DNA from: a virus | DNA length: 20,053 bases | Virus record (IMG/VR): IMGVR_UViG_3300031773_000062 | Location: 1 to 20,053 of that record | Reading direction: 5' to 3' (one strand) | Shown: positions 3,026 to 7,869 of the stretch, piece after piece | Numbering within the stretch: the stretch's first letter is position 1 | Layout of the letters: every line of letters begins with the position of its first letter | Made by a program: the position numbers and the translations under genes | The notes under the pieces: generated by a model | What the model was told of the DNA's origin: nothing | The model's database searches: none | What the model saw: the letters and a program-made list of their open reading frames with translations, nothing else

Positions 3026-3139
3026 ATGAAAGTTAAGGTAAGAAAGACAGGAATCTTTAGTAAGGCTCGCCCTCACCAGCGCGTCAACAAAATCTTGCCT
3101 CGGAAACAAAAGCACAAAAAAAGTGTTGACGTTTCCTAA
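3026..3139 (+). CDS. basic 37-aa peptide
   Basis: A very basic small protein (KVKVRKTGIFSKARPHQRVNK...), rich in Lys, Arg and His, consistent with binding nucleic acid. Its own promoter places the -10 box 7 nt before this ATG; another ATG lies 5 nt further upstream in a different frame. The 3' end of the gene contains the -35 box of the next promoter (3126). No family is recognised. Confidence 0.5.
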   Translation: MKVKVRKTGIFSKARPHQRVNKILPRKQKHKKSVDVS

Positions 3140-3153
3140 AAAACCTATTTAAT
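3126..3153 (+). promoter_or_regulatory. promoter, second class, for DUF932 gene
   Basis: TTGACG (3126-3131), 16-bp spacer, TTTAAT (3148-3153) within CTATTTAATTAA. Transcription should start near 3160, giving a ~28-nt A/C-rich leader without a Shine-Dalgarno motif before ATG 3189. Confidence 0.65.
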
Positions 3154-3188
3154 TAAACGTAACAATTAACCAAAAAACAAAAAAAACT

Positions 3189-3962
3189 ATGCAACAACTC
3201 AACTTGTCCATCTGCGGTTCTGATCGTACTAAAGCATCCTTTGAAGAAGTTCTGGCAGTTCAGACTCCTCAAAAGACCGAAACTTGGACTCCTATTAGTC
3301 ATGGGTTCCTCATTGACCAAACCAAGAAAAAGCTCGATGAAAATGGTTTCGACATTGTCGATGAGAATCACAACCTTGCTCGTTTTGGTCAGCGTTACTT
3401 TGGCCTGATGCAAGTGCAAGATCGCTCGGCTCCAGAAAATCCAGATCGGGCAACTATCGTTGGTCTTCGCAATGGTCACGACAAGTGCTTTCCTGCTGGC
3501 ATTATGGCTGGGGATGCACCTTTCGTTTGTTCCAATCTTATTTTTAACAATGAGATCGTGATCGCTCGCCGTCATACTAAGAACATTGACAACCTAGATG
3601 TAGCTGGCAATATCTTCCAGAAGATTGCCAATGCCATTGGTCAACTGCGTGAATCTTGGGTTGGTCAAGAAAAACGTGTCAACTCTTACAAGGAATATGA
3701 CCTTTCCTCAACCTCGGAGGCTAATGACCTCATTATCCGTGCGTTCCAAAATGGTTCTTGCTCCAAAACTCAAATTGCTGATATTGTCGGGCAATGGAAC
3801 AAACCAAATCACAACGAGTTTGCAGATCGGAATCTGTACTCTCTTTACAATTCATTCAGCGAGGTCTGGAAGGGTAATCTCGGATTGCTTCCTAATCGTT
3901 CAACTCAACTTCACGCCCTGTTTGACTCGGTGGCTGAATCACCTGAAGTGGTGGAGGTTTAA
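3189..3962 (+). CDS. DUF932-family phage/plasmid protein
   Basis: A 257-aa protein resembling DUF932 (phage/plasmid-like protein TIGR03299 group). The recognisable core is LRNGHDKCFPAGIMAGDAP-F-CSNLIF followed by EIVIARRHTKNI at about residues 95-135; the rest is helical. Family members are widespread in phages, plasmids and integrative elements, and their function is not established. The gene is larger than its neighbours, has its own promoter and an A-rich leader, and uses many C- and T-ending codons. It begins a two-gene unit that ends in a clear intrinsic terminator at 4284. One in-frame overlap on each strand is a shadow. Confidence 0.83.
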   Translation: MQQLNLSICGSDRTKASFEEVLAVQTPQKTETWTPISHGFLIDQTKKKLDENGFDIVDENHNLARFGQRYFGLMQVQDRSAPENPDRATIVGLRNGHDKCFPAGIMAGDAPFVCSNLIFNNEIVIARRHTKNIDNLDVAGNIFQKIANAIGQLRESWVGQEKRVNSYKEYDLSSTSEANDLIIRAFQNGSCSKTQIADIVGQWNKPNHNEFADRNLYSLYNSFSEVWKGNLGLLPNRSTQLHALFDSVAESPEVVEV

Positions 3963-5099: not shown

Positions 5100-5327
5100 A
5101 TGACTGAAGCTATACCACATCCAGTAATGGAACCAAAACTATACGAACTGAAGATTGCATCTTCTGTTTACGAACCGCAGTACAATGTAGATTGGTGCGA
5201 CAAGGTAGACGCATGGATCACGACATTTGTAGATCATTATAACAAGGACGATACAATGGAGTATATGTTCAACTCAAAAGATAAACTAGAAGAAATTCTT
5301 CTTGAACTAATGGAGGCAATTAACTAA
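5100..5327 (+). CDS. acidic hypothetical protein, 75 aa
   Basis: It starts at the base after the glycosylase stop and is followed without a gap by the next gene, so it belongs to the glycosylase transcript. The product has Pro/Tyr-rich N-terminal segments and an acidic, probably helical C-terminal half (SKDKLEEILLELMEAI). No family is recognised. Confidence 0.68.
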   Translation: MTEAIPHPVMEPKLYELKIASSVYEPQYNVDWCDKVDAWITTFVDHYNKDDTMEYMFNSKDKLEEILLELMEAIN

Positions 5328-5528
5328 ATGAAAAAGCTAAAAGTAGAAATCATTCATCCAGGGCTACGTGGACACTTCACTCAAGCAGGACAAAAGACAA
5401 TTAAATTCTGGGGAGCAAAAGGGTCAATCCGAAAAGGTGACGTTCGCCAAGACTTCTTTACTAAAGAGGTATTTAAGGTGCTAGAAGTGGATAGAAAAAA
5501 AGCTGAGATATTCCCAGAAGACTCTTGA
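5328..5528 (+). CDS. basic hypothetical protein, 66 aa
   Basis: A basic, beta-looking small protein (LKVEIIHPGLRGHFTQAGQK...). It directly abuts its upstream neighbour, and its TGA stop lies within the -35 box TTGACT of the next promoter. Such promoter-in-stop packing recurs at 11383, 11750 and 13104. Function unknown. Confidence 0.68.
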   Translation: MKKLKVEIIHPGLRGHFTQAGQKTIKFWGAKGSIRKGDVRQDFFTKEVFKVLEVDRKKAEIFPEDS

Positions 5529-5552
5529 CTCAACGCTAAATTCTGTCAGACT
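5525..5552 (+). promoter_or_regulatory. promoter, leaderless start for 5559 gene
   Basis: TTGACT (5525-5530, overlapping the preceding stop), 16-bp spacer, extended -10 TGTCAGACT with CAGACT at 5547-5552. ATG is 6 nt downstream. Confidence 0.75.
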
Positions 5553-5558
5553 ATTATA

Positions 5559-5780
5559 ATGAAAGATATAAAACAATTAGTAGGAATCGAATCAACGCAA
5601 GTCGCTGACCTGATTCAGCATCACCAAGATGTTCTTAAAGAAGATGAGCAGATTGTGGCAGACATAACTACTGCCAGATTGAGCTTGGAGTTCTTCATGG
5701 CATTAAAAGAAGACAATCGGGCTTATTACGAAGCAAAGAATATTAAACAAAAAATCTTACAACACTTGGGATTAGTATAA
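5559..5780 (+). CDS. helical hypothetical protein, 73 aa
   Basis: An almost entirely helical, charged protein (VADLIQHHQDVLKEDEQIVADI...) that may form a coiled coil. The start follows the -10 box by 6 nt, predicting leaderless translation. Its final A is the first base of the next gene's ATG (TAATG, 1-nt overlap), so the two are coupled. No family is recognised. Confidence 0.7.
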   Translation: MKDIKQLVGIESTQVADLIQHHQDVLKEDEQIVADITTARLSLEFFMALKEDNRAYYEAKNIKQKILQHLGLV

Positions 5781-6118: not shown

Positions 6119-6204
6119 GCCCAAGTGGTGGAATGGTAGACACTACGGACTTAAAATCCGTTGCCGTAACAGGCGTGAGGGTTCGACTCCCTCCTTGGGC
6201 ACCA
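6119..6204 (+). tRNA. tRNA-Leu (UAA)
   Basis: An 86-nt class II tRNA. The acceptor pairs GCCCAAG with CTTGGGC. The anticodon stem is ACGGA/TCCGT with loop CTTAAAA (anticodon TAA at 6152-6154). It has a long variable arm (TGCCGTAACAGGCGTG), T arm GAGGG-TTCGACT-CCCTC, discriminator A and encoded CCA (6202-6204). It would read UUA codons, which are frequent in the A/T-rich genes of this window. A hairpin repeat starts 2 nt after the CCA. Confidence 0.95.
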
Positions 6205-7469: not shown

Positions 7470-7497
7470 TTGACTTGTAACCTCTATAGTCTATTAT
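7470..7497 (+). promoter_or_regulatory. promoter of the tRNA-like RNA
   Basis: TTGACT (7470-7475), 16-bp spacer, TATTAT (7492-7497). Transcription should begin near 7504, about 25 nt before the tRNA-like 5' end. Confidence 0.7.
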
Positions 7498-7528: not shown

Positions 7529-7652
7529 GTCCGCGTAGTTTAGTCAGGTCTAGAACAGCGTCTCCTTTACTTCATCTATTCTAGATAATGGTGAAGCAAC
7601 CTGATCAGTTGTGGGATAGGCGAAGACGAGGGTTCGAATCCCTCCGTGGACT
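7529..7652 (+). ncRNA. tRNA-like RNA with enlarged anticodon domain
   Basis: Both ends are those of a tRNA. The acceptor GTCCGCG (7529-7535) pairs with CGTGGAC (7645-7651). A normal D arm follows (GTTT/GAAC around AGTCAGGTCTA, with the conserved GG), and the T arm is GAGGG-TTCGAAT-CCCTC (7628-7644). Between them lie 71 nt instead of about 22. They can form a 12-bp helix 7570-7582 with 7613-7625 (one A-C mismatch) that nearly abuts the T arm, as P2 does in tmRNA. Alternatively they form a hairpin 7570-7596 plus an arm GCAAC-CTGATCA-GTTGT whose 7-nt loop shows an Ile GAU triplet. No CCA is encoded, unlike the two normal tRNAs. It could be a tRNA with an insertion, a decoy, or a processing signal. 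Confidence 0.6.
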
Positions 7653-7653
7653 G

Positions 7654-7728
7654 CTTTTTCTGTAGATCGAAAGATTGAACAACGAGGCGTCAGAGCACGC
7701 CTACAACCCGAAGGGGAGAGAGAAAAAG
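7654..7728 (+). ncRNA. three-hairpin RNA domain after the tRNA-like element
   Basis: CTTTTTCT (7654-7661) is complementary to AGAAAAAG (7721-7728). Within it lie three hairpins: GATC-GAAA-GATT, with a GNRA tetraloop; AGGCGT (7685-7690) with ACGCCT (7697-7702); and CCC-GAAG-GGG. No sensible ORF occupies this strand. The nested symmetry strongly suggests a folded RNA on the same transcript as the tRNA-like element. Confidence 0.5.
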
Positions 7729-7750
7729 GTACAACACACAATTTCACTTT

Positions 7751-7848
7751 GCTAGGTCAGCATGGAGCATGGAACGTGGGAGATGCATCTCCCAAGGCGG
7801 TGCATGTCGCGTTCGCTGAGTACTCGGAGAACTTCCAGCTGACCTAGT
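7751..7848 (+). ncRNA. long-stem RNA domain
   Basis: CTAGGTCAGC (7752-7761) pairs exactly with GCTGACCTAG (7838-7847), and after one bulge the helix continues as TGGAG/CTTCCA. The interior contains the perfect palindrome GGGAGATGCATCTCCC and an outer GAACG/CGTTC pairing. The domain ends just before a new promoter, so it is probably the 3' end of the tRNA-like transcript. No known RNA family is recognised. Confidence 0.5.
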
Positions 7849-7869
7849 ATTAATTTCACAAAAAAAGCA

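Follow-up and report, generated by a model that had tools for sequence, protein, structure and literature searches.

The window, by which we mean the whole stretch of 20,053 nucleotides analysed here (IMG/VR virus record IMGVR_UViG_3300031773_000062), contains an ordinary tRNA-Cys and an ordinary tRNA-Leu, both with an encoded CCA (read for tRNA-Leu from the sequence after position 6201), and a tRNA-like element at 7529-7652 whose sequence, as the original prediction correctly stated, encodes none. That prediction recognized in the element a tRNA-like acceptor stem, D arm and T arm. All three are present, and the Rfam tRNA model RF00005 matches 7529-7652 at 40.9 bits (gathering score 29, E 1e-5), while ARAGORN does not call the region. 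The observation was real and its interpretation right in part: the conserved structured RNA runs beyond 7652 into a second domain, to about 7729, and the element first described is only the front half of an RNA of about 200 nt. The features of the locus are as follows, with hp1 to hp3 denoting the three small hairpins of the second domain.

6254/6296-7102, plus strand: GP88 family gene (PF17338, Pfam 3.4e-25), candidate partner; upstream, a recurrent same-strand neighbour
7470-7497, plus strand: sigma-70-like promoter TTGACT-16-TATTAT, 32 nt upstream; hexamers kept in relatives L003-L007
7500-7528, plus strand: leader, near identical in L003, L004, L006, L007 and L070
about 7529-7729, plus strand: whole structured RNA, tRNA-like plus 3' domain, about 201 nt; one conserved unit in 45 distinct elements
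7529-7651, plus strand: tRNA-like domain, from the Rfam tRNA match and comparative structure
7529-7535, plus strand: acceptor stem, 5' strand, pairing with 7645-7651; double changes in 6 of 7 pairs
7538-7556, plus strand: D arm, GUUU-loop with GG-GAAC; 100% of cells paired, double changes in 3 of 4 pairs
7559-7565, plus strand: P stem, 5' strand; CGUC with GGCG at 7619-7622, UCC with GGA at 7614-7616
7570-7596, plus strand: hairpin A, CUUCAUC/GGUGAAG, 13-nt loop; double changes in 4 of 4 aligned pairs
7580-7585, plus strand: loop A hexamer UCUAGA, proposed kissing site; all 54 cells self-complementary over 18 sequences
7597-7611, plus strand: hairpin B, CAAC-CUGAUCA-GUUG, 7-nt loop with GAU; 100% of cells paired, double changes in 4 of 4 pairs
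7602-7607, plus strand: loop B hexamer UGAUCA, proposed second kissing site; 96.3% self-complementary
7628-7644, plus strand: T arm GAGGG-UUCGAAU-CCCUC, a covarying helix
7645-7651, plus strand: acceptor stem, 3' strand, with no CCA after it, as in 44 of 45 elements
7654-7728, plus strand: 3' domain, an 8-bp stem enclosing three small hairpins, beginning two nt past the acceptor stem
7654-7661, plus strand: outer stem, 5' strand CUUUUUCU; 42 elements have 20 different stems, each fully paired
7665-7676, plus strand: hp1, GAUC-GAAA-GAUU; larger RNA domains instead in L085, L101 and L138
7677-7706, plus strand: near-invariant GAACAACGAGGCG...CGCCUACAA with hp2 stem AGGCGU/ACGCCU; invariant alignment columns, partly by construction, the same sequence having served as search pattern
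7707-7716, plus strand: hp3, CCC-GAAG-GGG, a conserved hairpin
7721-7728, plus strand: outer stem, 3' strand AGAAAAAG, pairing with CUUUUUCU

Relatives were found through the 3' end of the T arm with the acceptor (two close ones), then through the GP88 gene (a second sequence type, L006 and L007), and, in the case of many more, through the strongly conserved flank 3' of the acceptor stem. Pattern scans gave 45 distinct elements in which the tRNA-like part is followed by the 3' module, nearly all of them in phage sequence, with contigs reaching 458 kb. The contigs of three (L153, L159 and L179) had been assigned to bacterial MAGs; these were the real ones among 48 genome-collection matches to the 3' pattern, and the remainder were archaeal 23S rRNA or protein genes. 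The 18-sequence alignment used below consists of well-aligning relatives, all recovered by the 3' motif and therefore not selected for their loops.

Run unguided on the 18 relatives, RNAalifold recovered the helices of the acceptor, the D arm, the P stem, hairpins A and B and the T arm, and 26 of its 31 pairs carry double changes. For the named structure of the 5' domain, 96.7% of cells are paired, against 76.2% in shuffles and 38-48% in slid structures, and 30 of 36 pairs show double changes; none of the shuffles reached any of these measures. Since the folding energy of the 7529 element is unremarkable on its own (z -1.3), the excess over chance comes from the comparative evidence. The acceptor stem consists of seven pairs, one of them G-U, the P stem has double changes in 5 of 6 pairs in the same alignment, and hairpin A is preserved in L003 by way of a G-U change. 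The acceptor, T and central helices all covary among the homologues, where no plain tRNA with a decayed insertion was seen. In the comparative structure, the anticodon stem (P) leads into a three-way junction that bears hairpins A and B. The centre of the element had originally been read as some 71 nt that could form either a long helix beside the T arm or two hairpins. The extra stretch exists, with 56 nt counted within the anticodon stem by the tRNA model, and covariation upholds the two hairpins, set on the P stem CGUC/GGCG. The long helix is contradicted, because L003 and L004 change U7561 to C, which turns a P-stem U-G into C-G and would break the alternative pairing CGUCU/AGACG.

The tRNA signatures T8, A14, GG, A21 and the T-loop are kept in 40-45 of the 45 elements. 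These signatures, the Rfam score above gathering, and a loop B with the anticodon-loop-like 7-nt form YU-NNN-N-A would suit a tRNA-Ile(GAU), functional now or in the past, with an intron or insertion in its anticodon loop, an identity originally offered in its insertion form, but on several grounds we consider it very improbable. The 7529 RNA lacks a standard 5-bp anticodon stem with a 7-nt loop at the normal place, and no anticodon or U33 is conserved where the insertion starts. The GAU loop is the self-complementary loop of hairpin B, which becomes UUAGCUA, UUCGCUA or UAAUUA-bearing among relatives; it follows the palindrome, reading as GAU, AGC, CGC and AAU anticodons, instead of holding a constant isoleucine anticodon, and position 37 is C in the window and a pyrimidine, C or U, rather than a purine in most relatives. 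Far from decaying, the insertion keeps a conserved structure, and nearly all elements lack CCA and have a base-paired 3' flank; no relative with a plain tRNA-Ile at the same place was found. The insertion is also below the size of known self-splicing group I or II introns, which counts against the intron version. An apparently conserved isoleucine anticodon proved to be an artefact: our first loop pattern forced CTGATCA, and once all statistics had been recomputed from elements recovered through the 3' motif, other loops emerged.

Two further RNA types combine a tRNA-like part with something else. A tmRNA variant or ribosome-rescue RNA would likewise have additional helices beside its tRNA-like part, and in L075 and Streptomyces phage LuckySocke a relative is immediately followed by a short tmRNA-like RNA; the element, however, has a full D stem, neither tag frame nor pseudoknots, no RF00023 match and no ARAGORN tmRNA call, so that the likeness to tmRNA first remarked on is not sustained and this is the least probable of the identities considered. 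Bacterial Y RNAs join a tRNA-like module to another stem, and a YrlA-like RNA tethering a phage Ro60 (TROVE) protein might be imagined from TROVE matches in two jumbo-phage records, but the other 14 of the 16 RNA-bearing records, which may be incomplete or fragments, have no TROVE match, and with E allowed up to 1 no YrlA (RF02553) match turned up on the element, either in the window or in the loci scanned; we hold this to be very unlikely. The 7529 RNA is, in sum, not a working tRNA-Ile, not a tmRNA and probably not a Y RNA.

The 3' domain is more conserved than the tRNA-like domain; the window's copy forms a closed four-way fold (z -3.0). Its outer stem exists in 20 distinct versions that are always paired, with every position variable except the last; elsewhere the strands are CUCUUUCU/AGAAAGAG, CUUACACU/AGUGUAAG, CACACAGU/ACUGUGUG, CUGAUUUU/AAAAUCAG and others. 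This stem was counted directly because MAFFT misaligns hp3 and the 3' strand of the outer stem, so that RNAalifold on that alignment sees only hp2. Inside the stem come, in order, UGUAG, hp1, the near-invariant GAACAACGA, hp2, UACAACC and hp3. Replacement of hp1 by much larger hairpins in L085, L101 and L138 is as expected of an extendable arm. The link from acceptor stem to outer stem is a constant two nucleotides, NG in 38 of 45 elements, and by this comparative evidence the tRNA-like and 3' domains are shown to form one RNA unit, rigidly joined. No Rfam 15 family covers the 3' domain, for which no match was obtained even at E up to 1. A boxA within the domain was considered and rejected: UGCUCUUU occurs in one subgroup, and since the same strand reads CUUACACU or CACACAGU in other relatives, the stem, not boxA, is the conserved feature.

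The loops of hairpins A and B change in a particular manner. Within the 18-sequence alignment loop A contains UCUAGA, ACUAGU, CCUAGG or ACAUGU; more distant members have GUUAAC, GGUACC or UGUACA, and every one of these is a perfect palindrome. It is palindromic in 18 of 18 aligned sequences, with double changes in two of three pairs, namely the outer pair and that of the two central adjacent bases. Its flanks are fixed in the main group (AU before, UA after), and L060 and L099, with near-identical surroundings, differ by the double change ACUAGU to UCUAGA (A..U to U..A). Loop B is UGAUCA in most members, UAGCUA in L080 and L129, UAAUUA in L077, L084 and L100, and UCGCGA in L139; non-palindromic forms are UUCGCUA (L075 and L105) and CCGAUCA (L079 and L081), in which only GAUC is self-complementary. 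A hammerhead core (CUGANGA) was discarded as an explanation of this loop, which reads CUGAUCA, is closed by a stem and is not conserved. A palindromic hexamer lies in a hairpin loop of 25 of 30 non-redundant insertions, against 10.2 (sd 2.5, maximum 18) in 400 shuffles, and two such hexamers occur in 12 of the 30, against 2.3 (maximum 7), a statistic with a sizeable background and computed on related sequences.

Adjacent central bases of a loop cannot pair within one chain, and their covariation therefore points to pairing between two chains. In most members, moreover, the complement of the hexamer is found nowhere else in the RNA, leaving no intramolecular partner, so that the partner would be another molecule; exceptions include the window, L003 and L084, where the D arm holds another UCUAGA with which loop A could pair intramolecularly. 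Pairing of loop A with loop B was rejected as a general rule, complementary pairs being no commoner (2 of 30) than in shuffles (1.0), though L133 has such a pair. For OLE and GOLLD, Kretsch et al. 2025 (PMC12286853) took covariance of adjacent bases within palindromes as support for symmetric kissing loops between molecules, and the same palindrome-to-palindrome covariation is found in the 7529-type RNAs. Such switching in two loops suggests that copies of the RNA stick together, and we infer with moderate confidence that A-A and B-B kissing makes a dimer or a larger assembly.

Two other readings of the palindromes were weighed. The RNA might act on other molecules, through protein-binding or antisense loops or as a decoy for host tRNA-processing or anticodon-cleaving enzymes, the palindromy being a side effect of a symmetric partner. 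The intact tRNA elbow and acceptor, the anticodon-like loop B, and the existence of bacterial tRNA mimics (Y RNAs) accord with this; the wide change of loops that nonetheless stay self-complementary is not what a fixed protein or mRNA target predicts, and loop A is not anticodon-like. We judge it unlikely, though well worth keeping in mind. Alternatively, the hexamers, which are typical of DNA sites, might serve in DNA as sites for a dimeric regulator and have no role in RNA. This we find barely credible, given that the palindromes sit exactly in covarying RNA hairpin loops and that many different hexamers occur between fixed flanks, AU before and UA after.

A promoter of its own had been proposed for the RNA, in agreement with the promoter-like sequence at 7470-7497. 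Elements resembling boxA occur in leaders of ribosomal RNA operons. In marine-type relatives, a boxA-like AGUUCUUU follows the promoter, in the leaders of L074, L076, L080, L082, L085 and L101, and boxA-like leaders are a possibility for part of the family. The GP88 gene lies within 4 kb on the same strand at 28 of 74 RNA loci (25 contigs) and at 0 of 114 loci without the module. This association is a correlation for which shared phage ancestry remains a sufficient explanation; between the two main phage groups, GP88 protein identity is only about 20%, and an AlphaFold model of GP88 (mean pLDDT 54.8) was too poor for a fold search. A DUF932-like gene (window 3153-3962) also recurs near the RNA in other phages, as GP88 does. 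Downstream lies a second conserved structured element (window 7744-7856, L006 4413-4508, L007 9883-9980; absent from L004 and L008), with an outer stem CUAGGUCAGC...GCUGACCUAG and an inner hairpin GGGAG-AUGCAU-CUCCC whose loop is palindromic.

Departures from the common architecture were also seen. L117 has the 3' domain but no insertion in its tRNA-like part: at 5257-5421 (plus strand) a tRNA-like sequence of ordinary length, called tRNA-Phe(aaa) by ARAGORN, precedes the 3' domain, with a structured hairpin domain just upstream. L129 keeps one hairpin, and L070 and L078 are without the 7-nt B loop. In L075 the first RNA is followed by a second, tandem tRNA-like copy (5512-5638, minus strand), whose loops are UCUAGA and GUAAUUAC and whose 3' domain is truncated. 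Near relatives of the tRNA-like half occur, unannotated, between tRNA-Val and a tmRNA-like RNA in Streptomyces phages LuckySocke and Alone3, in LuckySocke, a phage of Streptomyces lividans with only this half, within a tRNA cluster. The short tmRNA-like RNAs, 64-81 nt long and directly behind tRNA-like relatives in L075 (5423-5486, minus strand) and L088, which is LuckySocke (3138-3218, plus strand), with similar ones in L024 and L036, match the ends of the Rfam tmRNA model at 57-59 bits (cut-off 47) and have neither tag frame nor pseudoknots. Between two early genes, Escherichia phage HK639 (L089, 2501-2573) has an unannotated tRNA-like sequence with a CUGAUCA hairpin, which many lambdoid prophage contigs share in the same or almost the same form. 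Several named phages have a motif resembling hp2, AACGAGGCGUCNNNACACGCCUA, in unannotated gaps that often lie by tRNAs or tRNA-like sequences, as at L190 1201-1227 (CUS-3, between Q and S) and L193 901-927 (Pseudomonas phage D6, behind a tRNA-OTHER), and further at L194, L191, L195, L192 and L056; this hairpin is possibly common to a wider family.

Comparison of the relatives establishes the two-domain architecture, its joint conservation and its covariation. We think it probable that this is a phage RNA, about 200 nt long and not described before, whose copies form dimers or oligomers with one another by means of loops A and B on a tRNA-like scaffold. The 5' domain, with acceptor, D and T arms kept and the anticodon stem ending in the junction with A and B, would fold like a tRNA elbow into a rigid scaffold that host tRNA enzymes may recognise, for folding and stability, and its 5' end may be cut by RNase P. 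The 3' end, lacking CCA and paired again two nucleotides on, would escape tRNA maturation. Each of loops A and B would then join its counterpart in another copy, so that A-A plus B-B contacts close a dimer or a larger oligomer forms. More speculatively, the near-invariant linkers of the 3' domain may bind a protein or ligand, for which GP88 is a candidate only. We put at about even the chances of the broader proposal, a widespread class of self-assembling phage RNAs with a tRNA-shaped scaffold, two kissing loops and a 3' binding domain, which in the infected cell would assemble into closed dimers, filaments or particles, perhaps together with GP88.

The suggestion of a new phage RNA class is supported: the RNA is carried by many phages, covaries strongly and is described by no Rfam family, and cmscan against all 4227 Rfam families gave no GOLLD or ROOL match on any sequence scanned. 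No description of the 7529-7729 RNA was found in the open-access literature, and within open-access papers and Rfam we rate it a new class, with oligomerisation as its putative property. Both tRNA finders and phage annotation overlook such RNAs, as when ARAGORN misses the element and the LuckySocke relative stands unannotated in its tRNA cluster. Natural self-assembling RNAs are few and were long thought rare, and GOLLD, ROOL and OLE were solved only recently. A much smaller RNA whose architecture can be read, and which has many variants, a tRNA core and perhaps a conserved neighbour gene, would make the question of what self-assembling phage RNAs are for testable in vitro.

Among known RNAs, the 7529-type RNA shares with tRNA (RF00005) the acceptor, D and T arms, the elbow signatures and a score over the gathering threshold, but differs in having no anticodon arm in place, a three-way-junction insertion, no CCA, and a 3' end locked in a second domain. 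Like tmRNA (RF00023), it has a tRNA-like part with extra helices; unlike tmRNA, whose tRNA-like part has no D stem, it keeps that stem and has no tag frame or pseudoknots. With bacterial Y RNAs (YrlA, RF02553) it shares tRNA mimicry joined to a second domain, whereas most of its records have no Ro60 gene match and the element has no YrlA match. The phi29 packaging RNA and retroviral dimerisation hairpins, likewise of viral origin, oligomerise through pairing between loops. Neither by sequence nor by architecture is a relation to them shown; phi29 loops pair with a different loop, while each loop of the 7529-type RNA would pair with itself. Both are named in PMC12286853, as are GOLLD and ROOL, phage or prophage RNAs that assemble into cages, with 14 copies in GOLLD and 8 in ROOL. 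By analogy, GOLLD and ROOL appear nearest in kind. They are several hundred nucleotides long, whereas the 7529-type RNA, of about 200 nt, has a tRNA-like core and a 3' domain of its own, and in place of their cages it has putative oligomers. GOLLD linkers sometimes hold tRNAs, while here the core itself is tRNA-like. As with GOLLD and ROOL, the RNA is phage-encoded, non-coding and often near tRNA genes, combines a conserved 3' region with a variable 5' part, and has palindromic loops that covary as symmetric kissing loops would.
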